Position numbers and translations under genes: made by a program. Source: Torymus aiolomorphi (taxonomy: Eukaryota > Arthropoda > Insecta > Hymenoptera > Torymidae). From it: DNA of 64,000 nucleotides. Under the pieces are notes generated by a model. The model made no database searches, had not been told where the DNA came from, and saw nothing but the letters and a program-made list of their open reading frames with translations. Below are positions 1,329 to 54,787 of this stretch, in pieces (positions within the stretch are counted from its first letter, which is position 1; the number at the start of each line of letters is the position of its first letter). Location of the stretch: NCBI GenBank assembly GCA_036365515.1, contig CM070874.1, positions 111,773,235-111,837,234 on the forward strand. The letters run 5' to 3'.

Positions 1329-2348
1329 ATGGGGAAAATGGACGAAAAGTAGTCACTGATTATGAGCCAATAGTAAGCTTTTAAATGTGCCAACAAATAT
1401 TACACAAAGAGATTCAAGCAGAAGAAAAGAGCTTTAATTTAAGCTAAAGATCGTTAAAATCGGTCGGTTCTGCGCAAAGGTACGTGCATTTGAAAATCGT
1501 GAAAAATGACCAAAAATGATTGAATTACGTGGGAAAAATCGCTCAATTTTGGTCATTTTTCGCGATTTTCAAATGCACGTAACTTTGCGCAGAACCGACC
1601 GATTTTAACGATCTTTAACTTAAATTAAAGCTCTTTTCTTCTACTTTAAGGATATGCCTTATACCGACAGAGTTCTCTGCCGTACCGACCACAATGTTTT
1701 TAATTATATATTAATTGTTATAAGCTTTTTCTTTAATTCTGAGTGTGGACACACAAAGGCAAACTTATTATCTAATTCCCGGTCAAATTTCAGATAGATT
1801 TAATGGAAAATAAAGACGAAATTTGAAAAATCGCAACGTCGTATAATATCACATTAACCCCAAAATACGACAACTTACGGTTTTTTAAATTTCGTCTTTA
1901 TTTTCCAATAGACTTGTCTGACATTTGAACAAGAATTAGATAATACATTTGCCTTTGTCGTCCACTCTCAGAATTAAAGAAAAAGCTTATAACAATTAAT
2001 ATTTAATTAAACATTGTAGTCGGTACGGCAGAGAACTCTGTAGGTATAAGGCATCCCCTTAATCGCATTTTTCGTGGAATATTTGTTGGCACATTTAAAA
2101 CCTTACTATTGGCTCATCATCAGTGACTACTTTTCGTCCATTTTCCCCATGTTAAATTTCCATAAGAAAAATGGATTTTTTTTGTTCTAAAACGGTGTCA
2201 CAAGACTGTTTTCTAATCTTCACGAATTTTTTCGAATATTTTATGACCTATAAAATGAGAAGAAACTTGTTGCCAAGATGTGCCTTCAAATTTTTTTTTT
2301 TTAATTTTTGAACCCTCTAAGTGTGGACAAAATAAAAATTTCCTCATA
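1329..2348. mobile_element. Hairpin MITE, family A copy 1, left end truncated, with nested insert
   Basis: The sequence from 1329 pairs as an inverted repeat with the sequence ending at 2150; both arms carry the same blocks in opposite order, for example ATGGGGAAAATGG against CCATTTTCCCCAT. An inner palindrome centred near 1525 pairs TTTGAAAATCGTGAAAAATG with its reverse complement. The right outer end runs on to 2348 and ends in GATGGAAATC-like sequence read as TTTCCTCATA followed by TA. The matching outer 200 bp on the left are missing, so the left end is truncated. A second copy at 14537-15217 keeps both ends. There is no transposase, so it must have been moved in trans. A second hairpin element is inserted at 1649-2059. 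Confidence 0.75.
1649..2059. mobile_element. Hairpin MITE, family B, nested in family A copy 1
   Basis: This 411-bp segment is a nearly complete palindrome. The left end reads AGGATATGCCTTATACCGAC and the right end, reverse complemented, reads AGGGGATGCCTTATACCTAC; matching continues through CAGAGTTCTCTGCCGTACCG and on toward a small loop near 1855. It is flanked by TA on both sides, which fits a TA target duplication. The uninterrupted second family A copy at 14537-15217 has CTACTTTAACC at the matching place, which marks the insertion point. No coding capacity is seen. Confidence 0.75.
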
Positions 2349-5300: not shown

Positions 5301-5478
5301 GCGGGCTTGCGCTTTCATTACTCCGGTGAAATGAGGAATTTGTATAGGGGAGGTTGGCGTTACAAAACTTAGTTTCTCGTTTAATGAATGTTGTTGAAAG
5401 ATACGTGGATGTTAAATATCATAATTGTAAAAAGTTATTCATAATTGGTTTGGGTAGTAGTAAAGTGTACTAATTATA
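2349..5478. other. Noncoding DNA, no gene recognised
   Basis: CpG-rich islands at about 2360-2780 and 4860-5320 alternate with AT-rich DNA. The longest frame, a 148-codon frame on the minus strand at 4714-5160, has no recognisable domain and mirrors the CpG-rich island. No RNA gene or transposon end was seen. Confidence 0.55.
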
Positions 5479-7588: not shown

Positions 7589-8857
7589 TAAATAGTAATC
7601 GAGCTTATTGGAAAAAAATATAAAAGGAATTGCTACCGATAAATGTAATACTAATTTCCATAATGGTATTCAAATTATTATAATAGACTAAAAGAAACTT
7701 ACAGTAACATCGAAAACTGATATTATCAGTACACAACAATACTTGCATCACACTAAACACACATCATCAATAAAAAAAACATCCAACCCCTTCTTCAAAA
7801 ATTCCACTCCCCTCTGACAGGAGAAACCCCAAAATTCCACCACACGACAATCAAGCCTCGTACATTGTTACCTATCCAGATGCTCCTGCAGTCAGCCTCA
7901 AGTTTCCACGTGCACCTAACGAAATCAACGCGCCGTTCGCGGAGCTGCTTAACGACGGGAGTTAACTCAACCTCCCCATAGCTAGGAGACAGGGAGAGTG
8001 TGAGCTTCCACTTCCGCTCGCTTAACTATGCATGAGACGTATTACGGATATCTCTCCGAGCTGGCGGCCCGCGGCGTCGGCGCAGCCGCATCGACCGATT
8101 GCTTGTAATTTCGCCGAGCGGAATCGAGCGGGTTTATTGTGCCGAGGTGTATTACCCGGGGGGTGGGTCGCCGCGGCGAAGGTAAACGATGTTTAACGCG
8201 CGCGAGCGCGCGGCTTGCAAGACGAGTCGCGTATTGTATCGAGCGCGTAAACGAGAAATCCTGGGTTTCATAGAGGATGGGATGAGTTCTTTAGTGTGGC
8301 TGCGAAAGGAGGAACTTCGGTTTCGTTCGGTGAGTGTTATGATACAGAATCTAGATATTCGTTCGGAGGTTGTAGGTGGTCGTTAGTTTTGGAAAAAATA
8401 TAACGCTGCACTTGACGTGAAAAAAAAATTTAATGCTGAAAGCTCGAGTTATAAAAATTTTATTACCTTTCCAGCGATGTGCGTTATAAGAATTTTCGGG
8501 GAAAAGAAATGTTTTATCTCGGGGCTTAATACTTTTTCGATGCTATTTCGGCAATAATACCTCAAAAATATTCCCGGTAAAGTGTAAACCCAATTACATT
8601 TTATTATTAAATACTGGAATACCGGACTGAAAATTTACTATGACCGTATTTCGTGGAAATGTGGTACGAGTTAATACGATTTTTATTTATCTTCTTTTCA
8701 AGCCCGTAAATTTAATGCTATAGAGCATTGAATTACACTCGACCATTTGTTGGGACGTACATTTTTAAGAAACGTAATAAAACAAAGCGGAAATAATAAA
8801 TATGCGGAATATCCGATTTTTACGTTCAAATAGCATATTCTGAAAATAATGTTAATA
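7589..8857. other. Noncoding DNA, no gene recognised
   Basis: A CpG-rich island lies at about 7980-8400, flanked by AT-rich DNA. The small + strand frame at 8189-8386 has no recognisable domain. Nothing else can be supported. Confidence 0.55.
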
Positions 8858-9636
8858 TATGAGTAAATCCCCACACTTTTTGTGTCACAAAACGGCCGAA
8901 ATTTTTTTTTAGAAGCACACTTCCCATACGTAATTTTGTTCGTTCTTTATACCTTAAATTATGTAAACGTAATGTTGAACAAATGAAAACACTTTTGTGA
9001 CACGGTTTTGTTTACTAAAAATTACTTTTTTAAATGATGATCCTTTTTCAAATCTCAACCATTTTGTCAGGAAAGATAACACGGAAATTTTGAAAAAAAA
9101 ACAAAAATTAAAAGAGAAAACCAGAGCTTTCAATAGCTTTTTTTAAAAATTAAAAAATATTGATTTCTTCAAAAGTTACCTAGCTTTGAAAATCAGGTTA
9201 AAATGCACAAAAAAACGTTGAAAAACGATGAAGACCGTGAAAGGCGAGATTCTGTACATCGACGTAGTATTTCCTGCATTTTAAGCTCATCTTCAAAGCT
9301 ACGTAACTTTCGAAGAAATCAACATTTTTTATTTTAAAAAAGTAAATGAAAGCTCTCATTTTTTATTTTAATTCTCTTTTTTCAGAATTTCTGTATTATT
9401 TTTCTTGAAAAAATCGCTGACAGTTGAAAAAGGGTAATTTTTCAGCATTTTTTATAAATCATTTTTAGTAAATAAAACCGTGTCACAAAAGTTTTTTCAC
9501 GTGTTCAACATTACTTTTACATAATTTAAGGTACATAAAGAACGAAAAAAATCATGTATGGGAAGTATGCTTCTAAAAAACATTTTCGGCAGTTTTGTGA
9601 TACAAAAAGTGTGACGATTTTGTGGATTTACTCATA
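8858..9636. mobile_element. Hairpin MITE, family C, with TATGAGTAAATCC ends
   Basis: The left end TATGAGTAAATCC pairs with the right end GGATTTACTCATA, and the arms keep pairing inward, for example AAACCGTGTCACAAAAG on the right with CTTTTGTGACACGGTTT on the left, and TTTCAAAGCTACGTAACTTT-like blocks near the centre. TA flanks each end. The element is about 779 bp, a fold-back with no coding capacity. Its ends resemble those of the 14537-15217 and 33481-33735 elements, which suggests one transposase once mobilised all of them. Confidence 0.8.
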
Positions 9637-11226
9637 TACAGGTGCGCATCGAACCGTCTTTCTATGGCTTTATTGTTTGATTTAGTAATAAACTTTTACT
9701 GTACATAAAAAAGAAAACTTTAATATAATAAAAATGTTTGTTTTTATGCATCAACGTTTTTCATTTTAGATATAGATTGATGGAATGCTCATTAGAAATT
9801 GATAGGTTTTTTTGACCACAAATGATCACCACGAGCCAGTCGTTTCTTCAAGCACTTTATTTTTCGACGTTTCGGCTCTCGTTTTTTCATTTTATAATAA
9901 AAATATACGAAAACAGAGTAAATAAGATTGCTTAACAACGTTTTACTTTAGTTTTAAATTACGAACTTCAATTCAAACACCAACTTTATTCCCATGAAAT
10001 TAGCATACCGAGAAACGAGCAAAAACTATTTTTCACACCAACCTAGAGAAAACCCGTACCGAAAGTACAACACACTATTCAACAACAAACGAACGTTAAA
10101 ATAATAGCCCTGCCACCGCGGACAAGCCAGCGGCGATACAAATAAGACGCCGCTTCATAAAAGAAAAATCCCTTTCTTCCCTCACTCTCTTTCTCGTAAT
10201 ATATTTTCGCACTTGCCGAACGAAAAAGCGCGTCTTTTCTATACACGAGCGGCGATAAGGCGCTCGCGAATCATAATCGCGTTTGCGCTGCGCCGATTTC
10301 GGGAAAGTGGGACACGCGCGGTCGGCAAAAAATAGACGAGCAGCCCCGCGATGGACCGTGAGCGGATTACTCGCGCGTCTGGGGACTTTGGGAGCTTGTC
10401 GTGGTACACATATATACATACACGCAGGTGAGGGACTTTCGAAGCTCTCGCCGTGGCGTGTTCCCGATCGGGCGGTTCCTTGGTGGGTAGAGGGAAAATA
10501 AGAGATTGATGCTGCGAAAGTTACAGATGGGAAGGTCGCGAGGTGGTTGGGAAGCGGTGAGGTCGTATGTAGTATGTAGGAATGATCTTACTCGTTGTTT
10601 CGAAAAGTTTTAGAACTATGATATGTTATACGTTTTAATTTTGAAATATACTAAAATTATTGTTTTCGTATCTGCTGAAGGCAGATTTACGTAGCAGTTT
10701 TAAAGTTAGCAATAAAATTTTTTTTTCACAGTGAAAATGATTTTTTATTTCAAAAATGTAGTTTCACGAAAAAATACCCGTTAAACGTGCAATAAGTTAT
10801 TATTACAGTTATTAGATATCAATTTAATTTACTCCGGAACTCCATTTAATTATAATGTTACATCAATCAATCAATTCAATGTGAACTATAGTTATGCTTT
10901 GCCATACACCAGCTTCAAAATAATCTTTGAACACAATACTGAAACACTATAAATTTGATGACTCATCAATAAAAGCATATTTTTTTATTTTTGACAATAA
11001 AATTTATTTTACATGTTCGCGGAAGCAGAAAATAAAATACTATGTAGGAAGCTGGCAGATTAAAACTACAGAACTCTACCTACCACAATCGAGATATATA
11101 TATTCCAACGCTCGCGTCACCGATTCTCAATCAGTTCCGCGTTCGTGCTAATGAATTTTCACTGTTCTGCTTTCTCTCTTCCTCTCTCCCGCTCTCTTTC
11201 CCCCCTATTCCTGACCTAATCGGTGC

Positions 11227-14367: not shown

Positions 14368-14536
14368 TCCTACAAAAGCCAAGCCTGAAGCGACAACCCA
14401 CTCACTGCTTTTTCAGAGCACCCATCCACGCATGAAACCAAATTTTACGAGCGCAGCATAAAACTCTCGCTGACACGCACGACGCAAAAACTGACATCCG
14501 CCATCAGGAAAACAGAAAAAAAGAATCCCCCGTGTA

Positions 14537-15217
14537 TATGAGGAAATCCATATTTTGTCCACACCTAGAGGATTCAAAAAATTAAAAAAGAAAAATTTAG
14601 AAGCACACCTCTGAAAAAAAAATTTGTTCTCGTTCTGTAGGTTATAAAATAGACGAGAAAATTTTTGAACAAATGGTTTTGTGATACGGTCTTTAAAAAA
14701 ATACAGAAAAATGGACGAAAAGCAATCCTTATTATTAGCCTATAGCGAGCTCTTAAGGTGACAACAAATATTTCACAAAAAGGTGATTAAAGTAGAAGAA
14801 TAGAGCTTTAATTTAAGCTAAAGATCGTTAAAATTCGTCGGTTCTGTGCAAAGTTACATGCATTTGAAAATCGCCAAAAATTACCAAAAATGAGCGATTT
14901 CTCCCGAATCCACGTAATTCTTGAAAAATCGCTCTTTAGCTTAAATTAAAGTTCCATTCTTCTACTTTAACCACTTTTTTGTAAAATATTTGTTGTGGCC
15001 TTAAGAGCTCGCTATAGGCTAATCATCAGGACTGCTTTTTGTCCATTTTTCAGTATTTTTAAAACTATATCACAAGACCATTTTCGAGTGTTCAAAAATT
15101 TTCTCGTCTATTTTATAACAGAACAAGAAAAAAATTTTTTCAGAGGTATGCCTCAACATTATTTTTTTTTTATTTTTTAAACCCTCTAAATGTGGACAAA
15201 TTATAGATTTCCTCATA
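14537..15217. mobile_element. Hairpin MITE, family A copy 2, both ends present
   Basis: The left end TATGAGGAAATCCATA pairs with the right end, TAGATTTCCTCATA, and the arms match inward through TTTTGTCCACA and the TTATAAAATAGACGAGAAAA block. TA flanks both ends. The interior matches the family A copy at 1329-2348, including the TTAAGCTAAAGATCGTTAAA block, but the right arm lacks part of the central palindrome that the left arm has, so the hairpin is asymmetric. Total length about 681 bp. Not coding. Confidence 0.85.
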
Positions 15218-17781
<2,564 letters not shown>

Positions 17782-41001: not shown

Positions 41002-41158
41002 CTGTAATTATCTATTAATTTATCGGATTATTGCTTGTTATTTCATGGGAATGTGCTTATTATTTAATCGGTTCTTTCATTTTTTTAGATTTGGGATTTT
41101 CATTGTAAAATGACCCTAAATATAGCGTTGTTCGTCCATGAGAATGCAGTTCATAACA
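41002..41158 (-). repeat. 3' LTR remnant (inner 157 bp)
   Basis: The 157 bp match 53093-53249 of the right LTR with two differences seen by eye and end in the same TTCATAACA. The remaining 1.2 kb of this LTR is absent; the sequence to the left is AT-rich and then belongs to the second retrotransposon fragment. Confidence 0.95.
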
Positions 41159-41175
41159 GTCCCCCCCATCTTTTA
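41159..41175 (-). other. Polypurine tract next to the 3' LTR
   Basis: On the minus strand the LTR is preceded by a purine run containing AAAAGATGGGGGGGA. In LTR elements this tract primes plus-strand DNA synthesis and lies directly next to the 3' LTR, as here. It sets the orientation of the element. Confidence 0.85.
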
Positions 41176-42628
41176 AAACACGGACCTATGGTTCGGGCTT
41201 TTCACAAATTTGGAATTTCAAATCTTCGCGTGCTCGGGAGGTTCGTAATAGACTCGATCGAAGCCAACGGATGGCGCCACGACTCGGTGGAGTTAGCGAT
41301 TCATTCAGAGTCGCCGTCACCGTCTGCTAGCTGTCAATACATGCTGGTAGGATTCTTTATTGTTTATGTTTTGAAGCTACATATGTAGAATAGATTACCT
41401 GTTTTTTTTTAAGGAGATTTAAAAAGGAGAAAAGAAGATGCTACTAGGTATACAATTTCTTGGGGAGGAGTTTAATTGGAATGCGAATTCTTTGTAAAAG
41501 GATTTTAATTTATATTTCAGCCTGCTGAAGAAGGACTTGTATCTGGGGATTCAAAGAGAATAATTAAGATATTCGATATTCGACTACTTATATTTGACAA
41601 GGCGTCTTCTTGCATTCATTATAAGATGAGGGTTACGTGATCAGCTTGAGTAATTTGTTGCATTATTATCAAGGTATTCAGATTTTGTGAGGCGTTTTAA
41701 AGAAGAACAGTAGCAATTCTACTGATTGAATGAAAACAAACACATACATTTTATGAGAAAGATGAATGTGAGATCACTGAGTCTGTTCAGAGTAGCACAG
41801 TATTCAATTCCAAAGGGCTATACACTACAACGAGTGTCAAGATACATTTGCATTTAAAAGCAACACGCCTTTTTGGAACAATAATAAATATATAATACAA
41901 GCTTGAGTTCAGGGTGTATGCAATAAATAATTATTGAAAAAGAAAAAATAAAATGGTTTTATGGATCTGTAATAATGTTGGCTTTTTAAGTTTTTATTGC
42001 GGTCTCGCACTTTATATGACCTGGTGCATATTCTACATCTCTCCTAGTAGTAAAACTCATTGTGAGTGGGACGTGTTAAAAGGTGTCTTATCAGTGGATG
42101 GATTAAAAGTACAGAGGAAGGACAGGTTGTTAGCAGCAGTTTTGTGCGAAACGGATGATACTAGTATTACCCTACTGTCACTATTTTGGCCAGAAGGGCT
42201 TATAACTATAGAACCGTCTTAAACCAAATCCCATCCTTGTGTAGAAAGGGAAACAAAAATACTTCACACTCAATAGTTGCTTTTTCTTTTCTTTTATAAA
42301 AAAAAATATAAAATTTATATTAAAATTATAAAAACAATCAGGTATTCCATATCCTACAGAATTTGCTCAGTAATGGCTCAGTGCTCTTCCTTCAGCAAAA
42401 ATTCTTGATTGGGTCCGGATCGTTGACAGAGTTTTCTGCATCTTATCATATAGGGCAGGAGAGGTATACTTCGCCCAATCTTACCTCCTCCTCGTGTTGC
42501 AGCAACACGAAGGCACATTGCCTACATCGTGCAGCTTTTATCGATCTGAAGGGATTCTCCAGGCATGGACCTGGGCAAGGAGGAGTTTGTAGACTGGTCG
42601 TGAGTCCAGTCATATGGAGGTATCTGAA

Positions 42629-43117
42629 TCACCAGTTAGCCTCCATGTCTGAGTAACACCTGAGACATCGCCAGGTAGATCTATCTGGGCTCTCAAAGTA
42701 AATCAGATCAGTGTGGGAGCATCTTTCCAGAAATACGCTTCTTTTTGGAGTACTCCCGGGCAAGAAACTCCTTTCCAAACTTACAGCTTCCTCTTCATTT
42801 ACGGGAGGTTTGGGGAAATGATGAGGGAGTCGTTCCTGAACAGGGGCTCGTGCTCTCGATTCCCTGCTTATGAAGAAACAGGGCGCTGGAGGTGCAGGTG
42901 TTGTGGCCGTAGGCACTATATTTACAGGTGCCACTGCTGCAGATGCTATGGTGGTAGGCGCCACATATACTGGCGAGACCGGAGGAGGCAAATAATACGT
43001 TAGGCAGCTACCAGTCACAGCCTGAGGGTTGGCGTAGTACAGCATCTGGCTTTGCACTCCTTCACCGGTCATGTTATCTTTCACCGGCTCCTCCTTTATG
43101 GTTATCTCGGGGTTCAT
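42629..43117 (-). CDS. Unidentified proline-rich ORF with cysteine pairs, behind a possible 79-bp intron
   Basis: The 162-codon frame begins MNPEITIKEEPVKD, where IKEEPVK resembles a sumoylation site of nuclear regulators, continues with a proline- and alanine-rich stretch at about residues 45-85, and ends with ERCSHTDLIYFE and WRCLRCYSDMEANW. After the TGA the same frame stays open for about 60 more codons and contains CRQC and a further Cys, so the TGA may be a mutation that cut a longer protein. Directly before the ATG, on the minus strand, is CATCTGCAG, and 79 bp upstream is AAAAG followed by GTAAGGCAGG, a good donor. No frame joins cleanly across, so the upstream exon would be 5' untranslated. 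I do not recognise the family. It could be a host gene fragment carried by the retrotransposon or an accessory ORF of it. Confidence 0.4.
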   Translation of the reverse strand: MNPEITIKEEPVKDNMTGEGVQSQMLYYANPQAVTGSCLTYYLPPPVSPVYVAPTTIASAAVAPVNIVPTATTPAPPAPCFFISRESRARAPVQERLPHHFPKPPVNEEEAVSLERSFLPGSTPKRSVFLERCSHTDLIYFESPDRSTWRCLRCYSDMEANW

Positions 43118-43196
43118 CTGCAGATGAGGGTTTTGGGTTAAATTATAGTTTCTCCCCCTTTTTCATTATAGGATATTCCTCCCCTACCTGCCTTAC
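43118..43196 (-). other. Possible 79-bp intron before the proline-rich ORF
   Basis: On the minus strand the segment starts GTAAGGCAGG and ends CATCTGCAG, with a T-rich stretch inside. The size is typical for insect short introns. The frames do not continue across, so it is only supported as a 5' UTR intron. Confidence 0.4.
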
Positions 43197-43925
43197 CTTT
43201 TTATGACAGGAAGTAATGCTGGCTTCTGGAGGAGATCCTCTTGGAGAGCCCTATGGCTTTTGTCTTTTGCGTGAGGTGTGATCACTCCGGTAGCAGTTGG
43301 TGGAATGGCCCATGGCGCGCGCGGAAAAAAAACGGCGGGGTCAACGTTAAAAACGATGTTACCAGTATACCTAGCATGGACTGACGGTCGTCGATAAAGC
43401 AAAGCGCAATTTTGCCAGACTTTTGTTAAAAACTGCCTTGAGACAAATTGATTGTAATTACGTGATGGTAGCTCATAATTAACTACCGATAAATACTATT
43501 AGCTTAAATTGTTCAATTTTGATAATAGTTAGTAATAATAATTATGGGCAAGAAAAATAAAGAATAAACTAGGTCAAACGCACGTTTCGCGTGCGGAGAT
43601 AAACTGAGCCTTACATACATATAGCTACAGCTGTGGCAGATATGACTATACTCCCGACCAATCAGATTGCGAATAAAAAGTAAAATAACATTGCCATCAA
43701 TTTTAATAAAGGGGATAATATCTCTGGAGAAGGTTACCAAATTCAAATACATTGGCCGCGTTCTGAGTTGAGAGAGCGCAATACGAGCGAAATGCGTTAG
43801 ACAAGGACAGAAATTACTGGCCAGCTGCTGGCAGCAGTAACGCACCCATTATCAATGAATGGAAGTGAACGTTGAACAATATTTGATTACTAGCCATCAG
43901 CAATTACCCTATTCCCCTTTTCTTG

Positions 43926-44210
43926 TACGGAGCGTGGTTCTTTGTGAATAAGTTAATTTGTAAGGGTGAATCGCGTACAGAGCGTAGTTTTTTTTTCTTT
44001 TAAATAATTTAAATTTTTAAGGGTGAAGGGTTTTTTAAATTAAATTTTGTTGTCTGCAATTTTATTATAGAGCGCGGCCTTTAAGAGGAGGGAAGTTTTT
44101 AACGAATTTATTTTTGAGAGAAATTAGTAAATTTATTGTCCTAAGAGCGAGGGGTGTACAAAGCGCGGTTCTTTTAAATAATTTAAATTTTTAAGGGTGA
44201 AGGGAGCCCC
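43926..44210. repeat. Diverged tandem repeat, period about 90 bp
   Basis: Blocks beginning TACGGAGCGTGGTTC, TACAGAGCGTAG, TATAGAGCGCGGCC and TACAAAGCGCGGTTC occur at 43926, 43976, 44066 and 44157. Blocks two and four are followed by AATTTTTAAGGGTGAAGGG. It lies downstream of the integrase gene in the retrotransposon. Confidence 0.65.
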
Positions 44211-44463
44211 TGCCGTCGCTCCCTTCTGTGAGATGCTTCCTATGGCTCGCCGGGGCCCATCCTGTTACAGGGTATCAGGATTACACCCGGTTTCCCATCT
44301 CCAGGGCAGAAAAAGGAACAAGATTTTAATTTAAAACATTTTTGAATTTTATTTTTACGAGCCCTGGCCATCTCTCCTATGACCCTTATTACCATATCAT
44401 TTATTTATAACAAGATACATACAATTTTTAGCTTAATCGCACGCATACAATAGAAAATTATAT

Positions 44464-44968
44464 TCAGTCTGGTCGCAAACACGCATGTTTTAATTTATCC
44501 AAGTGAACTACCTTAGTTTTATTATTCCCCAGATCTATTTTCGCGTTTCTATCGTCTATTAACTCAAGTATTTTACACCGACCCGCATATTGCTCGTCGA
44601 ATTTTCATACTTGCGGTTCTTTTAACAAATATACGCCTTCACCGACCTTAAAATTTTTCGCGTTTAGTTTCTGGTCATAATATCGCTTAGATCGCTCCCT
44701 CCAACAATTGTGCATTCGCCGTTCTCTGTGTATCATTAAGTTTAAATATTAATTCGTCTAGGTACATTTCGTAGGTTTTCTCGACATTTTTCGTTTCGAA
44801 CTCTGAAGGCAACCGCGCTTTTTGTCCGAAAATTAATTCATGGGGAGTGAAACCGTGCGCTGAATGAACTGACGTGTTATAAGAAAACATAGCCATTTTA
44901 ATCCACATATCCCAATCGGTTTTGTCAGTGTACATTTTAAGATATTCGACAAGGGAGTGATGACTTCT
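44464..44968 (-). pseudogene. Integrase C-terminal part, broken
   Basis: After the stop at 44969-44971 the same minus-strand frame continues RSHHSLVEYLK and then the frame at 44687-44935 (DWDMWIKMAMFSYNTSVHSA, GFTPHELIFGQKARLPSE), which is the conserved end of the gypsy integrase core. A frameshift near 44700 leads to ERSKRYYDQKLNAKNFKVGE, the C-terminal domain, with an in-frame TGA at 44605-44607 and then YAGRCKILELIDDRN, where a GPY/F-type motif would sit. The frame ends at 44464-44466. At least two breaks plus the upstream stop make it non-functional. Confidence 0.85.
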
Positions 44969-45826
44969 TTATAAACCCATGGTTTGGGAATGGAAAGAGG
45001 TAGATCGCAACTGCCTAATTTTGAATATCTTAGCTACCTTTTGCATTAAACTGCTCTGAAAATTGCTGCCCTGATCGGCTTTAATCGCTTCGGGACAGCC
45101 GAATCTAGTAATAAAATCGTGAACTAACGCGGTGGCAACCATCTCAGCGGTCATATCGGAAATAGGAAGGGCGTCAGAATACTTAGTTAGGTTGCACTGA
45201 AGGGTTAATATATATTTATTCCCGGCTATAGTTACAGGCAAGGGCCCTACGATATCCATTCCTAAGACTTCGAACGCTTCACTAGGGGTAGTGGTGATTC
45301 TCATAGGTTGCTTTGTTTTTACTCTAACCAATTTGCGCCTTTGACACTCCTCACACGCTCGCACATATTCGGAAATATCTTCATTTATTCCGGGCCAAAA
45401 GTATCGTTCGCGTACGCGATGATAAGTTTTCGCGATGCCTTTGTGGCCCCCAATTACTGAATCATGGGCTTCATTGATAATTCCTAACCTATCATTGGGA
45501 GGTGGAATAATTACTTCGCCTGTGCATATAGTTAATTTTGGAAACCCGGTTTTCATACATAAAGACGAATTATAGGGTGACTCAGATTCTTCTACTATGT
45601 CATTATTAATTAAATCTTGAACCTGTTCTCGAACCGCTTCGCGTAAATGAGGTGGGTAACGATATTGTTTTACATTAATCGGAATGTTATCCGTGGTGGG
45701 TATTTTGTGAGCAATTTTGGAAGTTTGGGTAAGTTTATCTTTCGGTAAATGAAACTTGCAAGGAAACTGAGAAACTAATTTTATCACGCTATCCTTTTCT
45801 AGCTGATTAAGCCCTTCCAAGTTCAA
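44969..45826 (-). pseudogene. Pol fusion: start of reverse transcriptase joined to integrase, middle deleted
   Basis: The 285-codon frame begins upstream of reverse transcriptase and reaches NNDIVEESESPYNSSL, the conserved early motif, at about residues 74-89. It then jumps directly to integrase at about residue 90. All catalytic reverse transcriptase motifs (such as YxDD) and RNase H are absent. The integrase part has the HHCC zinc-binding region (HDSVIGGH, then CEEC) and the core residues D in LGMDIVGP and D in KADQGSNF. The frame stops at TAA 44971-44969 within what should be the conserved LER motif carrying the catalytic Glu; spacing from the second Asp is one residue shorter than the usual DD35E. 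The element cannot supply reverse transcription or integration. Confidence 0.9.
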
Positions 45827-45834
45827 TAATTCAG

Positions 45835-46398
45835 TTATTTTATTAATTCTATGTGAACTATTCTAATTGAACGAATTGGTTTTATTGTACCATCATAGCT
45901 TTCTAAAACAATAGGGAGTACGATTAATCTAATGTCCTCCGTCGTTGATTTAATTGCGAATAAAGTAACTTTTCCGTTATTATTGGTGACTAAACATTCG
46001 CCCAAAAAGACACCCGGATCTGTTTTTACTCTCGGAACGTACCCGGTCTGACGCGCAGGATTTTGAACTGCGAGATGAATCAAGGTTTTTGTTCTAGCCG
46101 GTAGATGAATGATATCGTGTTCAAGAAAAGGGGCAGCTTCCCATGGTTGACCCCAAGTAAGCGTAGAATCTCTAAAGGATAAGGTAGCTTTTTGCGTTCG
46201 CATGAATTCTACACCGAGGATTCCGTCAGTTTTTATAGGAAAGTCGTCAGATACCCAAGAACATTGGGTTTCGATTAACCCTTCGCCAATTCCAGCTAAT
46301 CTATACAAGGTATCTACAAGAATAGGTACACTACCTTTTAATAAATCTCGCTTTATAATATTCAACTCAGAACCTGTATCCAAAAGGAATCGCGACAT
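45835..46398 (-). pseudogene. Retrotransposon aspartic protease with internal deletion
   Basis: The frame has SRFLLDTGSELNIIK with the retropepsin D-T-G near its start and DGILGVEFMRTQKATLSF with the ILG motif near residue 70. Compared with the second copy at 40290-40922 about a dozen residues are missing between GEGLIETQ and the region before the ILG motif, which should remove part of the flap. The frame is open further upstream to about 46560, where an in-frame stop separates it from the second zinc knuckle of gag. A stop at 45835 separates it from the Pol frame, though in this family such domains are normally one polyprotein. Confidence 0.85.
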
Positions 46399-46559
46399 AT
46401 CCTTAACTAAATTCTCGCTCGCGAATGCAACAATGGGAGATTTTATGTCCTGCGGGGTGGTGACGGCAAGGATAATGGCGCGAGTATGGACATTAAAGCC
46501 GGAGGGGCTCGGTGGTTCACCGGTATTATTATTACTATAAGGATACGGTCCCTGATATT

Positions 46560-46640
46560 GATTTGTTCATTTCCTACATTCATCAAAATTATGCCCAGAG
46601 AATTTGCAGTAATTACAAAATTTAGATTTCCGTTTTTCTA
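46560..46640 (-). pseudogene. gag fragment with the second CCHC zinc knuckle
   Basis: On the minus strand, directly left of the transposon insertion, the frame reads CNYCKFSGHNFDECRK, a CX2CX4HX4C zinc knuckle, followed by a TGA stop. It belongs to the same gag as the first knuckle at 51117-51346. The frames of the two parts agree when the inserted element and one TA copy are ignored. Confidence 0.9.
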
Positions 46641-47276
46641 TATACACGGTGACCCATTTTAATCGCTACACCCGGATTTTTCGGATCCTAAGACAGATAG
46701 GAAAAAATGATTCAGACAAAAGTTGTAGGGGACGAAGGGGGCCAAACGATGGTCCTAACAGCTTTGACCTTGAACTTGACCTTCAAGGTTATTTCAAGGT
46801 CAAGTGGTTTTTTTTAATAGGAACACCTATTTTTGACCCCGGATTCGGAAAGAGCGGGAAATTTTACGTTCAAAATCATATTGAGACATTTTTTTCAAGG
46901 TCATTTCAAGGTCATTTCAAGGCCAAATGAAGGTCGAACTCCGAAAAATCCATTTTAAGTCGTTTTTTCCATGAGTCACAGGCTTAAGTGGTTCAAACTG
47001 ATCGTAGATTTAATAGGGAAACCCACACACCCAAAACTTTCACATCCTAGTAAACAAATATCAAACTTGCACATCCGAACCCCATGCTCTTCATAGCCTC
47101 ACATGCTAAACTGTTACACCAGACATCCCCCAGTCCCACACATCTCTACCCCATGTCTGATGTTTGTTTAACGGAAACTTCAAGATCATTAAAGCTTCTG
47201 TTGTAAATGTGTCAACCTTACGTTTAGCGCTACCCAGAAACAACGACGTGGACGTAGTAAGGATTGTTTCCTTTGG

Positions 47277-47522
47277 GGTGCTTGATTAAAGTGAGTCCCC
47301 TTGCCTCTCACTGTTCAGGGTGCTTGATTTAAGTGAGTCCCTTCGCCTCTCACTGATCGGGGTGCTTGATTAAAGTGAGTCCCCTTGCCTCTCACTGTTC
47401 AGGGTGCTTGATTTAAGTGAGTCCCTTCGCCTCTCACTGATCCGGGTGCTTGATTAAAGTGAGTCCCCTTGCTTCTCACTGTTCAGGGTGCTTGATTTAA
47501 GTGAGTCCCTTCGCCTCTCACT
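47277..47522. repeat. 41-bp tandem repeat in the left arm, 6 units
   Basis: Units begin GGGTGCTTGAT and alternate between a TAAAGTGAGTCCCCTTGCC type and a TTAAGTGAGTCCCTTCGCC type, each ending CTCACTGTTCA or CTCACTGATC. Each unit carries AGTGAG near one end and CTCACT near the other, so single units could fold. It lies just downstream of the transposase stop. Confidence 0.93.
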
Positions 47523-47533
47523 TATGTGTTTAT

Positions 47534-48597
47534 CTAACCTCGAAGAAAATGTTCGAAATTACGACCATTTGCTTCCAGGCACATAGTCAAACGCCTTTGG
47601 AAGTGGCGAACGGTGTTTAGCAAAGTTTGCCTTGGAATGGCAGCGCATGCTCGACGAATTCTGTCCATCATGTCTACTCTTGTGGTGGGCCTTTCCTCAA
47701 AAACGGCATTTTTTAAATACCCCCATAAGTAAAAATCTGGTGATGTAAGATCTGGTGAGCAAGCAGGCCATTCAACCGGACCACCTCGACCAATCCATCT
47801 GTTACCATACTGCTCATTCAAAAAAGTCCTGACAATTCGAGCGAAATGTGGTGTTGCGCCGTCCTGCTGGAGCCACATTCTTCGTCGCGTTTCTAAGTCA
47901 ATATCTTCCATCAATACAGGTAGTTCATCTCTTATTAGCGTTAAGTACGTGTGTTGATTAACATTTTCTTCGAAAAAATAAGGGCCAATCACACATCCAT
48001 TAATAATCCCACACCATACCATAATACTCCATCGTCTTTGATGGTTTACAGTTCTGACCCAATGAGGATTAACATCAAACCAGTAATGACAATTATGTCT
48101 ATTCAATTCCCCATTACTTTGAAATTTTGCCTCATCAGAAAAAAGAACAAAATTAAAAAAGTCTGGATCATTTTCTATCATTTGTAAAGCCCATTGGCAA
48201 AACACAATACGCTGTTGAAAATGAGCAAACTGTAGCTCTTGGACCAGAGTAATATGATACGCATGATATCTAAGCACCTTCATAATTCTTAAAAATGTAC
48301 TTTTGGAAGACCGATTTCCCTTTCGATTCGACGAGCGCTTATCTGTGGGTCAAGATGAATTATTGCCAGAATAGTCACAACCCGATTATCATTTTCATCA
48401 TATTGATGGCGCCTACGTTGACGAACCATGTGTCCACCACGAGCTCTTTGAGTTAAACGTCTGATAGCCATAGCGTCAGGGTGTCGTCTGTCTGGATAGC
48501 GTTCAGCATAAATTCTTGCCGCAGCACGATAATTACTTCGGCTTTCTCCTAAAGCCAACATCATGTCAACGATCTCGTTGGGCGGATAGTCAGCCAT
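47534..48597 (-). pseudogene. DD41D mariner-type transposase, left arm copy
   Basis: The gene is in two frames. 48597-48289 (102 codons) begins MADYPPNEIVDMMLALGESR and holds a helix-turn-helix region (YPDRRHPDAMAIRRLTQRAR) of the DUF4817-like kind. 48283-47534 (249 codons) is the DDE core: D50 in LFSDEAKF, D141 in WLQQDGATPHF, and D183 in SPDLTSPDF. Residues 141 and 183 have 41 residues between them, which is the DD41D (rosa-like) spacing. The linker WIGRGGPVEWP and the WG motif are present. One missing T in a T run at about 48293 separates the two frames; otherwise the gene would be about 353 codons, normal for the family. Only this one break was seen. It transposes DNA by cut and paste in the nucleus; this copy is broken. 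Confidence 0.9.
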
Positions 48598-48742
48598 TTC
48601 AGAGCCAGCTATTAATTACTATTAAATTTGAATAGTGAAATGGTATAAAAAATATTAATAATTATAATATTTGCCCGTTTACGGTCGCGACCAAAAAAGA
48701 AAAATGTTCCTAAATTATGGTAACTTTATCTGACTAAGTGTA

Positions 48743-49101
48743 TTTGCCAAAAGTACTCCGATTGTCACACTTTTGTAATTGTAAGTTTTATAATAAAGTA
48801 ATAATCATTAAATTATTTCTAATTTGAACTGCACATAATACTAAAACTTGCTTTTATTTTAAATATTGTGAATTATTGCCGTTCAAACTTGAGAAATACT
48901 AATATTGATAATGTAATCATTAAAGGCACATTTACAAATAATTTCTGTTCCGTCAAGATTTTTGTACAAAAAAGAAATGTTGTATCTTTATTCTTTTGAA
49001 AGTTATGACTTTTCTTTTTAAACAATGACATTTTTTTACAGCTCATATCTTTAATTTACTCATAACTTTCAAAAGAATAAAGATACAACATTTCTTTCAA
49101 C
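48743..49101. other. Unique spacer at the centre of the palindrome
   Basis: This 359-bp AT-rich spacer separates the two arms. It contains a smaller inverted repeat: GAAATGTTGTATCTTTATTC near 48975 pairs with GAATAAAGATACAACATTTC near 49078. Both transposase genes start on either side and face outward, so any promoter for them lies in the inner arm or here. No ORF. Confidence 0.85.
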
Positions 49102-49246
49102 TACACTTAGTCAGATAAAGTTACCATAATTTAGGAACATTTTTCTTTTTTGGTCGCGACCGTAAACGGGCAAATATTATAATTATTAATATTTTTTATA
49201 CCATTTCACTATTCAAATTTAATAGTAATTAATAGCTGGCTCTGAA

Positions 49247-50308
49247 ATGGCTGACTATCCGCCCAACGAGATCGTTGACATGATGTTGGCTTTAGGAGAA
49301 AGCCGAAGTAATTATCGTGCTGCGGCAAGAATTTATGCTGAACGCTATCCAGACAGACGACACCCTGACGCTATGGCTATCAGACGTTTAACTCAAAGAG
49401 CTCGTGGTGGACACATGGTTCGTCAACGTAGGCGCCATCAATATGATGAAAATGATAATCGGGTTGTGACTATTCTGGCAATAATTCATCTTGACCCACA
49501 GATAAGCGCTCGTCGAATCGAAAGGGAAATCGGTCTTCCAAAAGTACATTTTTAAGAATTATGAAGGTGCTTAGATATCATGCGTATCATATTACTCTGG
49601 TCCAAGAGCTACAGTTTGCTCATTTTCAACAGCGTATTGTGTTTTGCCAATGGGCTTTACAAATGATAGAAAATGATCCAGACTTTTTTAATTTTGTTCT
49701 TTTTCTGATGAGGCAAAATTTCAAAGTGATGGGGAATTGAATAGACATAATTGTCATTACTGGTTTGATGTTAATCCTCATTGGGTCAGAACTGTAAACC
49801 ATCAAAGACGATGGAGTATTATGGTATGGTGTGGGATTATTAATGGATGTGTGATTGGCCCTTATTTTTTCGAAGAAAATGTTAATCAACACACGTACTT
49901 AACGCTAATAAGAGATGAACTACCTGTATTGATGGAAGATATTGACTTAGAAACGCGACGAAGAATGTGGCTCCAGCAGGACGGCGCAACACCACATTTC
50001 GCTCGAATTGTCAGGACTTTTTTGAATGAGCAGTATGGTAACAGATGGATTGGTCGAGGTGGTCCGGTTGAATGGCCTGCTTGCTCACCAGATCTTACAT
50101 CACCAGATTTTTACTTATGGGGGTATTTAAAAATGCCGTTTTTGAGGAAAGGCCCACCACAAGAGTAGACATGATGGACAGAATTCGTCGAGCATGCGCT
50201 GCCATTCCAAGGCAAACTTTGCTAAACACCGTTCGCCACTTCCAAAGGCGTTTGACTATGTGCCTGGAAGCAAATGGTCGTAATTTTGAACATTTTCTTC
50301 GAGGTTAG
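49247..50308 (+). pseudogene. DD41D mariner-type transposase, right arm copy
   Basis: The sequence mirrors the left arm gene. The first frame, 49247-49555, is identical in translation to that of the left copy, including its stop, so both copies share the break after GLPKVHF. Two further breaks are found here: a T run in the SDEAKF region near 49704 is one base shorter than in the left arm, and the A run near 50130 is also one base shorter. The visible frames are therefore 49737-50168 and 50072-50308, overlapping. The catalytic residues D141 and D183 (left-copy numbering) are both encoded. All three breaks are single-base differences in homopolymers. Confidence 0.9.
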
Positions 50309-50317
50309 ATAAACACA

Positions 50318-50487
50318 TAAGTGAGAGGCGAAGGGACTCACTTAAATCAAGCACCCTGAACAGTGAGAGGCAAGGGGACTCACTTTAATCAAGCACCCCG
50401 ATCAGTGAGAGGCGAAGGGACTCACTTAAATCAAGAACCCTGAACAGTGAGAGGCAAGGGGACTCACTTTAATCAAGCACCCCAAAG
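50318..50487. repeat. 41-bp tandem repeat in the right arm, 4 units
   Basis: The same repeat as at 47277-47522, reverse-complemented, with four units instead of six (AGTGAGAGGCGAAGGGACTC and AGTGAGAGGCAAGGGGACTC types). The two-unit difference explains nearly all of the length difference between the arms. Confidence 0.93.
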
Positions 50488-51115
50488 GTAACAATCCTTA
50501 CTACGTCCACGTCGTTGTTTCTGGGTAGCGCTAAACGTAAGGTTGACACATTTACAACAGAAGCTTTAATGATCTTGAAGTTTCCGTTAAACAAACATCA
50601 GACATGGGGTAGAGATGTGTGGGACTGGGGGATGTCTGGTGTAACAGTTTAGCATGTGAGGCTATGAAGAGCATGGGGTTCGGATGTGCAAGTTTGATAT
50701 TTGTTTACTAGGATGTGAAAGTTTTGGGTGTGTGGGTTTCCCTATTAAACCTACGATCAGTTTGAGCCACTTAAGCCTGTGACTCATGGAAAAAACGACT
50801 TAAAATGGATTTTTCGGAGTTCGACCTTCATTTGGCCTTGAAATGACCTTGAAATGACCTTGAAAAAAATGTCTCAATATGATTTTGAACGTAAAATTTC
50901 CTGCTCTTTCCGAATCCGGGGTCAAAAATAGGTGTTCCTATTAAAAAAAACCACTTGACCTTGAAATAACCTTGAAGGTCAAGTTCAAGGTCAAAGCTGT
51001 TAGGACCATCGTTTGGCCCCCTTCGTCCCCTACAACTTTTGTCTGAATCATTTTTTCCTATCTGTCTTAGGATCCGAAAAATCCGGGTGTAGCGATTAAA
51101 ATGGGTCACCGTGTA

Positions 51116-51346
51116 TATTGGACAACGTCGAAACCTATGACCTGATTTACCGCATTCGTAGCATTTAAATTTTTTCTTTTCCGGCTCTTCTTGTGTTTCC
51201 GTTTCCGCAACGTGACAGTAAACCCGTTTCCTACTGTCTATATCTAGTGCTTCTATAACGTCAGGTAAACTACTACTTCTATCCCTTGGCCTAGAATTCT
51301 CCGAAATTACCCACGAATCGGACGCTTGCTTGCTATTAGCCGACAT
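51116..51346 (-). pseudogene. gag fragment with the first CCHC zinc knuckle, cut by the transposon
   Basis: The frame begins MSANSKQASDSWVISEN at 51346 and reaches CYECGKSGHRFRRCP, a CX2CX4HX4C nucleocapsid zinc knuckle, close to the insertion point. The open frame runs on into the transposon end as a chance chimera. An in-frame stop lies about 13 codons upstream of the ATG, after an open frame (51388-51645) that may be an earlier part of gag. The length from the LTR to the knuckle is short for a gypsy gag, so part may be deleted. Gag forms the particle and the knuckles bind RNA in this family. Confidence 0.8.
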
Positions 51347-51881
51347 TTTGCAATAATCGTTCGCTCGCTCGCTCGGGTTACTTAGCTTTAATCTTCCACA
51401 GGTGGCCTTGGTGGTTTGGGCGGCTTGGTGGCTTGTGGCTGGGGCTTGTGTCTGGTGATTGATGCTGGTGTCTGGTGATTTACTGCTGGTGTCTCGTGAT
51501 TAATGCTGGCAATGCTTGCAAGCCGTCGGTGTGGAGAGGCAATGTCTCGATCGTAGATGACGCCTAGAGCGAAGCTGATATGGACTTCCTCTGTTGAACG
51601 TTCGTCGTCTGGGAGTTGGCCTTGGGGCTGCGTCGTCAGTTCCACTATCGTATCCTGAGTCGGGAGTGCCTTCTCTTGAATTACGTCAATACGTCGTTGT
51701 TCATGAAGTCTTCTTCGATTGATTTGAGGATTTCTCTCTTTGGTATAATTGCCGTGGACTCAATTCTCAATCGGATCCGGCATTCGCCCGTGTTCCAGGG
51801 GAAACCACAGCTCAAAAACCCTGGACGGAACACTATAACTTCACTTTGTTCAGTCTTTTCACTCGCGAACTCCTTTGAAGA
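51347..51881 (-). other. Retrotransposon leader and possible gag start
   Basis: Between the primer-binding site and the gag frame. On the minus strand an 85-codon frame at 51388-51645 begins MELTTQPQGQLPDDERS and ends PPVED. It is near-repetitive in TPA and PP-type segments and is not recognised; it may be the degraded N-terminal part of gag. Confidence 0.5.
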
Positions 51882-51899
51882 ATCCCACCGCTGTCACCA
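51882..51899 (-). other. Primer-binding site of the retrotransposon
   Basis: The + strand reads ATCCCACCGCTGTCACCA, which looks like the 3' end of a tRNA including CCA, with a 4-base gap to the LTR edge at 51904. In LTR elements the minus strand here is the primer-binding site. A leucine-type tRNA is my guess from memory and needs checking. Confidence 0.75.
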
Positions 51900-51903
51900 A
51901 AAA

Positions 51904-53249
51904 TGTTACGACCCAAGTCGGGGTCTTTTAGTCGAAAGGTATTTCTACAATGGTCGCCGCGTTGACCAATTAGATTGTGGAATTCATTCGTTCAATTAAG
52001 CGCTGAAGCGCAAGGAGTCGCGGGAAATTTGAAATAAAGACTTGAACTCGAGAGAATAACTTTAACTTGATTTTTATTGAATTAATTAAGAACTTTGTTA
52101 ACTTTGACAAACAATGAACTTTAGAACCGTGACTCTATACAATTCAATATCGACTGACACTATGACGTGGTCAGGGTGCGTGCACTAGTGCAATGGAACA
52201 AACTACGAAGCTTATCATGTGCTTGGTAGCGACTGCTCGAGGCCGGCGGTGAGGCCCAATTTATATTCTGGGTCGTAGGTGGAGCTTCAGGTTGGTAGTG
52301 GGAGGCAGTATAGTGTAGAGGTTGTAGGGCGCCAGGTTGCTTCAGAGATCCTCTCCCCACTCCTAGGTAGGAAGAGCGGCGATGGAGGGGCCCCAGTTCA
52401 GAAAGCAGGGTCAAGAGTGATGATCAGCGGGTGATGGACCTCCTCCTTCGGTGGCGTGAGGCGCTGCTAGTCCGTGATTGGTTGTTGACGATGGCACAGA
52501 CCGTTAGGCTGTTGGGCTCCATTGCGCAATAGTGTTTGTCCGTTGACTTGCCCTTAAGGTGACCCTTGTTGTCGATCGTCAGTTGTCCTCCTCGCTAACC
52601 GTTTTCTCGACCTTTCACCCTTGAAGGCAGGCTAAGCTGCGAGATCGTGTGTTGTTTGACCTTCCGTCCTTGAATAGAGCCTACGCTGCTATTTACGTCT
52701 TCTCGATGCTGTGGGATAGTAGGCTGTTTGACCCTTCAACCTTGGCTACAGGCTACGCTGCTGTTTGTGTTTTTCGTCCTTGGGGTCGCTTGCGCTAGGG
52801 ACCGCTTGTGTTGTTGTCTGTCGCTCGTCCTCGGGATGGCTCCTGTTGTCATTTTATCGATCGCCCTTGAGATGACTCCTGTAACAGAGCTTTTCCTACC
52901 CGACGCGAGCGAACTTCCTTAATTAATTATTGCTACGCACTCTCGTTAATTTAATTATTAGTTATTGTTATCACGTTTATTCCATTATTAATTATAAAAT
53001 TTCGATCATTGGTCTATTATTTAATCAAAATCATTTATTTCCATTCGATTTGTCTATTTATTACTTAATTATTTATTTATTTGTCGAACCGACTGTAATT
53101 ATCTATTAATTTATCGGATTATTGCTTGTTATTTCATGGGAATGTGCTTATTATTTAATCGGTTCTTTCATTTTTTTAGATTTGGGATTTTCATTGTAGA
53201 ATGACCCTAAATATAGCGTTGTTCGTCCATGAGAACGCAGTTCATAACA
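51904..53249 (-). repeat. 5' LTR of the retrotransposon, full length
   Basis: The 1346-bp LTR starts TGTTACGACC and ends GTTCATAACA on the + strand, with TG...CA ends and short terminal inversion. It is next to the primer-binding site on its inner side, and its outer 157 bp match the remnant at 41002-41158. The small + frames starting in this LTR are shadows. Confidence 0.93.
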
Positions 53250-54787
53250 GTACCTATGTAGCAGCAACGCTGCGTACATACACGGATTTGGTCAACGCGG
53301 GCGCCGAGGAATGCGGCGCGGTGAGGGCACTGCTGTTAAGCGTCACATATTATACAAAAAATACAATCACACATGAATATATTAGTTTCATAAAAATACA
53401 ATATTTAATACAGACAACAAGATAAATAAAATCTATTAAGAATTTGGTCGAAAATTTACTCCAATTAGGAAGAGAAATGAAAGCTAGATCTCTTGTCAAA
53501 AGCTACGCTTACAAAACCTATGGGTCGAATTCCATCATCCTCATCACAACAGTCTAAACCATTTTTTAGCAAACCTAAGGTAAGAACCATCACGCTTTCT
53601 AGTAAAAAAAAAGTTGGCAACAGAAGGACGGCGAAGATATCAAGATGAGAGATGAAATGGAATAATCCGCAGACAGGGCCGAGGCGAAAGATAAAACGTA
53701 CGGGCGCACGAAAGGGAATTAAGGGAACAGAGCGGGCGCATCAGCGCACGCGTGTGTATGCCCGGCACGTGATATAAAAGGTGGGCCATCGTCCACACGT
53801 CGGCATTCGTAATGCGTTTCCATATGAGAGCTATTAGCTTTTTCCTCGTACGTTGGTACTCGACGGGTGGTATGAACGTTTAATTTTTCTTATACTGGAT
53901 GGAGAGCCTTTGTTTGTACTTATCGTGCTGCACGATAGGAAATCATTGCATAATTTTTATCACTAGAAAATCGTGGTCATCGAGCGGATTAATTGGGTTA
54001 ATTGTGAAAAATACTTTTAGAAAACGAATTACAAAAATTTGATTAACGTAATAAAGTATATGTTTGTGAGTTCACAATTACTTATGTATTTATTTCTAGA
54101 GAATAAGTATTTCGTTATTTCGTTGGGATATCCTCCCACTGCAGATGAGAACTACGGTAGGTATTTAATGGTATTTTATTTAGTTGGTATTTTCTTGATT
54201 ATATACATATAATAATATTGAGTTAAGTGCAATATTAGATTTAATTTATTTTATATTTTTACCGGTAACTCAAAAATCAAAATTTTCTAGTCTTACACGA
54301 CAATGCCTCATAAATAGTATCTGAGCCATTAATACAAGATAGAACATGGTGCGATCTATACAGCTCATTTCATCAATAGTATGACACACCCAATATCAAT
54401 ATCGGTAAAGCTCACTTTATCCTGCTAGTCACCTGACTTTGACATTATTGAAATCGGCTGATATAAAAGTGAAGCATGTTTTAAAATGTTTTCCAACATG
54501 AAACCATTATTTTATTTTAACACACTGCGTTACAAAACTCTATAATACATTATAATTGAGTAAAATGCATAACATTTTATCGGCCTGTAAAACGCCATGA
54601 ATCAGTATAGCGCAGGTATCACTACCAAGTAATATCTCAAGTACGTTTTCTATAACGATATACATATAATAATATTTATAATATTCGTTTCAATTTAAAC
54701 TCTAATACACTAGTTTATAAAAGATTAAAATATGATTTACAACGTAGGCATACCTACTTTATCGATAAACATAAGCAGATATTCTAC
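53250..54787. other. Noncoding DNA, no gene recognised, with a TATA-like motif
   Basis: A CpG-rich segment at about 53690-53780 precedes a TATAAAAG at 53773-53780. If this is a promoter, initiation would be some 30 bp downstream. No ORF follows that I recognise. The rest is AT-rich. Confidence 0.45.
53773..53780 (+). promoter_or_regulatory. Possible TATA box
   Basis: TATAAAAG in a GC-rich context (GCACGTGA just upstream, GTGGGCC just downstream). No gene start follows, so support is weak. Confidence 0.25.

Follow-up and report, generated by a model that had tools for sequence, protein, structure and literature searches.

How should one read a locus in which two transposase genes lie in opposite orientation within a single pair of terminal inverted repeats (TIRs)? 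The question is raised by an element at positions 46645-51113 of a 64,000-nucleotide stretch of the genome of the torymid wasp Torymus aiolomorphi (assembly GCA_036365515.1, contig CM070874.1, positions 111,773,235 to 111,837,234), referred to below as the window. The usual picture of an autonomous cut-and-paste transposon is a single transposase flanked by a pair of TIRs, and Tc1/mariner elements generally target TA, possess a short TIR at each outer end, and, in their ordinary members, encode one transposase. A first-pass annotation made from the letters of the window proposed that the locus was one mobile unit rather than two neighbouring copies, and this proposal was borne out by the recurrence of the structure, by deletion junctions shared between copies, by arm-specific single-nucleotide polymorphisms (SNPs), and by empty insertion sites. 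The element very probably belongs to a recently amplified Tc1/mariner-type family, the complete form of which is a palindrome of ~4.78 kb that contains two transposase genes and moves as one unit.

Architecture of the element

The window element measures 4469 bp and consists of an inverted arm pair, 46645-48746 and 49098-51113, which was found to pair at ~99% except for an 84-bp difference within a 42-bp tandem repeat. A 2-kb inverted repeat at 99% identity is far beyond chance. The TIR, CACGGTGACCCATTTTAATCG, occurs at both outer ends with TA adjoining each, and a search for a TIR around the palindrome centre gave a best local score of 7 versus a shuffled median of 9, with no recurrence, in agreement with the earlier description of a single TIR pair placed only at the outer ends next to TA.

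That description had also placed a 359-bp spacer between the arms. The arms were confirmed, but the unpaired middle is 351 bp long (48747-49097) and is itself partly arm: 48971-49097 forms the hairpin proper, its 38-bp stems pairing perfectly around a loop of 51 bp, while 48747-48970 is arm rather than spacer because complete copies carry these 224 bp on both sides. The window copy has lost the 224 bp from its right inner arm and has kept the partner on the left. Each arm contains a transposase gene, 354 amino acids long where the frame is open, that is read outward from the centre. Both window genes are full length, as described, but neither is intact; in each, an A-run has lost one base, which brings a stop after codon 102, and the right gene has two further 1-base losses.

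Insertion and transposition as one unit

The element sits in the zinc-knuckle open reading frame (ORF) of a minus-strand retroelement of the long terminal repeat (LTR) type, which possesses an integrase at 44969-45826 and 162-bp direct repeats, 98% identical, at both ends; the probable extent given in Table 1 is derived from these repeats. The zf-CCHC match in the host ORF has an expectation value (E) of 0.00047, just under the cut-off, and removing the element together with one TA reopens the host frame, with two CCHC motifs. The genome was scanned separately with the right flank and the left flank, using right-flank matches of 96-98% over 116-121 bp and left-flank matches of 75-78% over ~248 bp. 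Fourteen copies of the retroelement among the matches listed have the right and left flanks side by side. The gap between the flanks is 6 bp in three of these copies, 5 bp in one, and, in the other ten, exactly the 4 bp left over once the element and one TA are taken out. Given these 14 empty sites, the whole palindrome fits one insertion accompanied by duplication of a TA.

Additional evidence comes from six deletion junctions that are each present at two genomic sites. These pairs are the window and C5:98987652; C4:108814801 and C4:130655624; C1:186202676 and C5:112406571; C2:223753262 and C3:48392112; L060 and L061; and L062 and L063. Comparison of the 240-bp flanks within the first four pairs revealed no similarity. 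The sister of the window copy, C5:98987652-98992123, lies on another chromosome and has the same 224-bp deletion. Moreover, three SNPs (arm positions 1258, 1434, and 2035) are present in all four arms of the two copies, and six one-arm SNPs are common to the two (212, 364, 625, 911, 1471, and 2099), with the left arm of the window copy corresponding to the right arm of the sister and vice versa. The shared deletion and the six arm-specific SNPs therefore demonstrate that both arms travelled together and that the deleted window form transposed as a whole palindrome.

The copies at C3:123376156 and C5:112406571 differ in their central deletions but have 3′ flanks that are 97.5% alike over 240 bp, and variants in common, which suggests either duplication of the region or insertion into one and the same repeat.

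Copies across the genome

The genome comprises 1.08 Gb in 21 contigs. A search with the left arm returned 55 matches, from the best 40 of 2187 candidates scored, and the 39 full-arm matches among them represent 36 loci, including the window. An inverted second arm was found at 34 of the 36 loci (at least 1 kb in 29 and 156-773 bp in five), two or more gene starts at 17, and both outer TIRs at 32, of which 31 are flanked by TA at each end. The first-pass annotation had reasoned that a mobile unit should recur as palindromic copies with TA flanks at unrelated sites, and that the idea would fail if all other copies were ordinary single-transposase elements. The former were indeed found and the latter outcome was not, yet a single gene start survives at 19 of the 36 loci.

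Four of the copies are complete palindromes (4781, 4782, 4783, and 4783 bp) that are 98.0-99.0% self-complementary from end to end, with inverted half-arms of ~2.37 kb around a 51-bp loop. Genome-wide, the exact 33-bp TIR occurs 586 times (294 + 292) and a 73-bp palindrome centre 208 times with no more than 2 mismatches, the controls giving 0 in both cases. The TIR gives a less biased sample than loci ranked by arm match, and its pairing was examined in the first 100 TIRs listed, all on C1, where 32 facing pairs spanning 342-5606 bp were found and 36 ends were unpaired at this stringency. Thirteen of the 32 pairs span 4.70-5.61 kb, and the four pairs of ~2.2 kb, a length that would suit an element with one gene, are in fact centre-deleted palindromes with arms of 0.80-1.44 kb. 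The 342-bp pair (L064) resembles a miniature inverted-repeat transposable element (MITE), being a short derivative with 92-bp inverted ends; that label, which denotes short and non-coding elements, does not suit the window element, at 4469 bp and derived from coding sequence.

Two further copies are of interest in their own right. One of 5602 bp (L042, C1:146813500-146821100; element 573-6174) is a more complex rearrangement of the palindrome, with an additional centre, three gene starts, and an inner arm that is repeated. The other (L035, C3:140151600-140159200; element 1477-6283) has flanks that are mutually inverted and 99% alike over 240 bp, a pattern that insertion into the middle of another palindrome would produce.

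The transposase

Fifty-four gene starts were examined, and 21 of these are open to codon 354, 20 of them with an ATG. At least one open ATG gene is present at 18 of the 36 loci, and two are present in C2_26727900 and C3_53153500. The protein possesses a DUF4817 helix-turn-helix (HTH) domain above the cut-off, while DDE_3 was detected in a C-terminal piece only, at an E of 7.6e-5 that is below the curated cut-off; at E ≤ 0.01, DDE_3 was not listed for the whole transposase but was listed for two of three relatives. A fragment of the window transposase matches chain 5cr4_A of Sleeping Beauty by sequence (3.7e-8). D155 and D246 are invariant in nine of nine aligned proteins and D283 in eight of nine, with 36 residues separating D246 from D283. 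By analogy with mariner, these three residues are read as what is presumably the catalytic triad. Homologues with E ≤ 0.001 number 1430, and the named species among the 120 listed are wasps and ants. A scan of viral contigs with the transposase found no relative.

The A-run loss of the window genes (48289-48310 and 49534-49555) occurs in both arms and in neither gene of the C5:98987652 sister. Because three other copies likewise have one gene in which the first stop follows codon 102, the loss may mark a hotspot for slippage, an error in sequencing, or a further symmetric event.

Copying between arms

Variants were analyzed in 71 readable arms. Among the 69 variants with just two carrier arms, the carriers are the paired arms of a single element in 25 cases, versus 0.92 expected and a maximum of 4 in 2000 random draws; the carriers of the other 44 are in different elements. 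The excess of same-element pairs indicates that arms have been copied onto each other, and these comparisons of assembled arms demonstrate statistically that mutations were copied from arm to arm in this transposon family. Several variants of higher frequency are symmetric as well; those at arm positions 943, 1038, 1347, and 1450, for instance, are shared by the two arms in C1_186201174 and likewise in C5_112406300. In one element, the same private nonsense codon (codon 85) occurs in both arms, so arm copying can spread damage as well. When arms were polarised by the direction of the loop, no fixed arm differences were found at 2060 sites in 31 elements.

A possible mechanism

The complete form comprises two ~2.37-kb half-arms, each with a TIR end, a 354-amino-acid gene, and a 42-bp tandem repeat, arranged around the 51-bp loop. 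Transposase from any intact arm would bind the two outer TIRs, excise the whole palindrome, and paste it into a TA, and broken copies such as the window element could be mobilised in trans by transposase of the family. Copying between arms may occur through gene conversion within the palindrome or, alternatively, through the rebuilding of one arm from the other during repair of an excision gap, and deletion of the centre would reflect the instability of long palindromes. The first palindrome may stem from gap repair in which both ends of a break were filled by copying from one and the same TIR side.

A second, diverged family

A second family, ~78% identical to the first in DNA, was also found. 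A search with one of its copies (C1:183831637-183833525; 534-bp arms, 96.6% alike) gave 53 matches, from the best 40 of 1556 candidates scored, with 10 loci present as inverted pairs, and its exact 45-bp TIR occurs 396 times in the genome (control, 0). Another copy of ~3.47 kb (C1:153978935-153982401) has ~1.15 kb of arm sequence at its right end, including the last 100 codons of the transposase, and its left end matches the corresponding stretch. Judged from these sequences, long inverted arms with gene sequence are not unique to the first family.

It is conceivable, though less likely than not, that the palindrome represents a maintained, ancient architecture in which each arm serves as a mirror-image backup for the transposase and TIR of the other, conversion keeps the arms alike, copies that lose the unstable centre stay mobile and potentially autonomous through the surviving arm, and symmetry helps the lineage persist. 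The transposon arms would then be likened to the palindromes of Y chromosomes, the arms of which are kept alike by conversion. The claim that the architecture is older would draw on one second-family copy read (L031/L065), one right end (L066), and the coordinates of the 10 inverted pairs.

Competing explanations

Several observations weigh against a two-gene palindrome moving as one unit. The genes of the window copy are broken, and only one gene start is left in the 19 loci mentioned above; taken alone, such copies could be called long-TIR elements with a single gene. Copies of 2568 and 2619 bp, with second arms of 199 and 156 bp, are indeed much like single-transposase elements, and C4_108814560 and C4_130654122 lack any centre, having just 1.19-kb inverted ends. 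At two loci (C1_9881700 and C2_33076200), the DNA read contains neither a second arm nor a second TIR; both keep an inverted inner arm or the centre hairpin. Sampling is also pertinent. The 36 loci were ranked by whole-arm match, so copies without part of the arm are under-sampled; two of the 32 TIR pairs were already among these loci, and five of the other 30 were read. Similarly, the genomic ORFs, with no stop in 85 and a stop in 30 among the best 115 of 8004 candidates scored, come from a listing that favours unbroken frames. Finally, 305 singletons with a readable partner occur in one arm only, and mean divergence is 0.88% within elements versus 1.03% between them, being lower within in 29 of 35. 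This pattern of variation fits a source with near-identical arms that multiplied in a recent burst, after which the arms decayed for the most part independently.

That the family is an ordinary long-TIR mariner, with TIRs that have simply lengthened and a symmetry of no biological relevance, is a less likely explanation, albeit one with precedent: elements with long or expanding TIRs are described in the available parts of three papers (PMC4168063, PMC3169594, PMC5490172), and centre-deleted forms with second arms of 0.16-2 kb are common here, some of which transpose. Growth of TIRs accounts poorly for a complete form that is ~99% inverted repeat with two whole genes, for variants common to both arms, or for a diverged family that also has long inverted arms.

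It is a good deal less probable that each round of transposition reconstructs the palindrome from a single arm, through fold-back or hairpin replication, instead of moving it in double-stranded form. Such rebuilding would suit the lack of fixed arm differences and the many symmetric variants, the duplicated nonsense codon among them, but six arm-specific differences survived transposition in the window copy and its C5 sister. Likewise, C2_223751800 and C3_48389100 share variants at arm positions 404 and 590 on the long arm and are without them on the readable short arm.

Two other explanations are very improbable. Insertion of a single-gene element followed by inverted duplication in place would likewise leave one TA duplication and no inner TIR, but the same junction and arm-specific SNPs recur on another chromosome and the same centre is found at many loci. 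For the window copy, duplication in place is ruled out by the C5 sister; as the origin of the first ancestor, it may have occurred. An artefact of assembly or library, such as an inverted chimera or a missed sequencing adaptor, is just as hard to sustain. Errors in sequencing might account for the 1-base losses in homopolymers, yet the differing flanks form one continuous retroelement frame, empty sites exist elsewhere, private SNPs differ between the arms, and nearly all copies with both ends are flanked by TA on both sides; on these grounds an assembly chimera was rejected.

Least credible of all are two ordinary mariner copies inserted side by side in opposite orientation, which would explain the paired inverted genes but not the lack of a TIR around the centre, the inverted second arm at nearly every locus examined, or an empty site that needs a single insertion, and which are ruled out by one identical centre recurring, 208 times in all, at unrelated sites.

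Features of the window

Coordinates of the element and its host are collected in Table 1. Elsewhere in the window, four other inverted, self-complementary stretches of 0.2-0.8 kb (1413-2062, 5477-7590, 8856-9638, and 14535-15219; 78-88%) look like older palindromic repeats.

Table 1. Features of the palindromic element and its host retroelement, in window coordinates.
Feature	Position	Strand	Evidence
Host LTR-type retroelement, probable extent	41002..53254	-	162-bp direct repeats; integrase 44969-45826; zinc-knuckle ORF from 51346
Left target-site TA	46643..46644	.	Sequence; TA on both sides in other copies; empty sites
Left arm, 2102 bp, outer TIR at 46645	46645..48746	+	Pairs with 49098-51113
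42-bp tandem repeat of left arm, directly 3′ of transposase stop	47275..47525	+	Sequence; inverted-repeat analysis
Left-arm transposase gene, outward	47534..48597	-	ORFs 48289-48597 and 47534-48283; DUF4817, weak DDE_3, Sleeping Beauty similarity
Inner left arm, right-hand partner deleted	48747..48970	+	Both sides in complete copies, e.g., L040
Palindrome centre: stems 48971-49008 and 49060-49097, loop 49009-49059	48971..49097	.	Inverted repeat; 208 genomic matches
Right arm, 2016 bp, outer TIR ending at 51113	49098..51113	-	Pairs with left arm
Right-arm transposase gene, outward; three 1-base losses	49247..50308	+	ORF reading
42-bp tandem repeat of right arm, two units fewer than left	50317..50483	-	Arm comparison
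Right target-site TA	51114..51115	.	TA flank check; empty sites

Significance

With hundreds of TIR ends and many open frames, the success of this family indicates that a multi-kb palindrome can replicate and reinsert in an animal genome. The many related copies make several processes testable, including deletion of the palindrome centre, conversion between arms, and the effect of a second transposase copy on an element's spread. Read-through transcription, if it occurs, would naturally generate long hairpin RNA from the palindrome, with a conceivable bearing on silencing. Moreover, if the architecture has truly been maintained, symmetry would help the lineage of a DNA transposon to persist.

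Comparison with known systems

Among the closest relatives, Tc1/mariner-type transposases with a DUF4817 HTH that were compared by protein alone, are LOC131672314 of Phymastichus coffea and LOC118646659 of Monomorium pharaonis, with 67% and 62% identity to this transposase, respectively; both belong to the same family over their full length.

Palindromic elements have been recognised among Tc1/mariner relatives. Tc6 of Caenorhabditis elegans, by the name reportedly used by Dreyfus and Emmons in 1991, is said to be palindromic and non-coding, and a 2005 article by Bigot et al., the title of which concerns motifs within terminal repeats, is reportedly the source for palindromic elements among the mariners of Anopheles gambiae. 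Palindromic transposable elements are stated, by citation, for C. elegans, Drosophila melanogaster, and the mariner elements of An. gambiae in the available part of a further paper (PMC3212995). As far as these partial accounts go, the Tc6 and An. gambiae palindromes are likewise Tc1/mariner-related, whereas here each arm encodes a transposase.

Long inverted repeats are also found in other systems, as described in the parts of the sources at hand. Tm1 generates 9-bp duplications, with a transposase-encoding form found once in Meloidogyne incognita, and Mcmar is a Tc1/mariner-like element with a 355-bp TIR (PMC3169594). Tetris is represented by three structurally complete copies without conserved ORFs (PMC4079207), and mariner elements resembling the long terminal inverted repeat (LTIR) type occur in aphids (PMC5490172). 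From these partial descriptions, Foldback elements, Tm1, and Tetris resemble this family in the great length of their inverted repeats and, in some cases, in possessing internal tandem repeats; here, inverted repeats make up most of the element and each window arm contains 42-bp tandem repeats. Foldback and other long-TIR elements are characterised by non-coding repeats, while the arms here hold 354-amino-acid frames, open in 21 of 54 gene copies.

Galileo, a member of the P superfamily in Drosophila, has long, structurally dynamic TIRs, into which the last part of the transposase ORF can be recruited (PMC4168063). It differs in its superfamily, in its 7- or 8-bp target duplication (only TA is duplicated here), and in that no functional copies were found, and the available part of the same account describes no palindrome with two whole genes (PMC4168063). 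More broadly, the titles and beginnings of abstracts listed from the open-licence literature yielded no autonomous palindromic Tc1/mariner element, which is weak evidence of novelty given that Repbase and most subscription journals lie outside that scope and that palindromic mariner elements are already mentioned by citation in PMC3212995.

The family possesses the hallmarks of Tc1/mariner, namely insertion at TA with TA duplication and an HTH DNA-binding domain combined with a DDE/D catalytic domain, and departs from the usual layout of one transposase between short TIRs in that complete copies have two genes and ~2.37-kb half-arms. The element is an extreme variant of Tc1/mariner rather than a new class.

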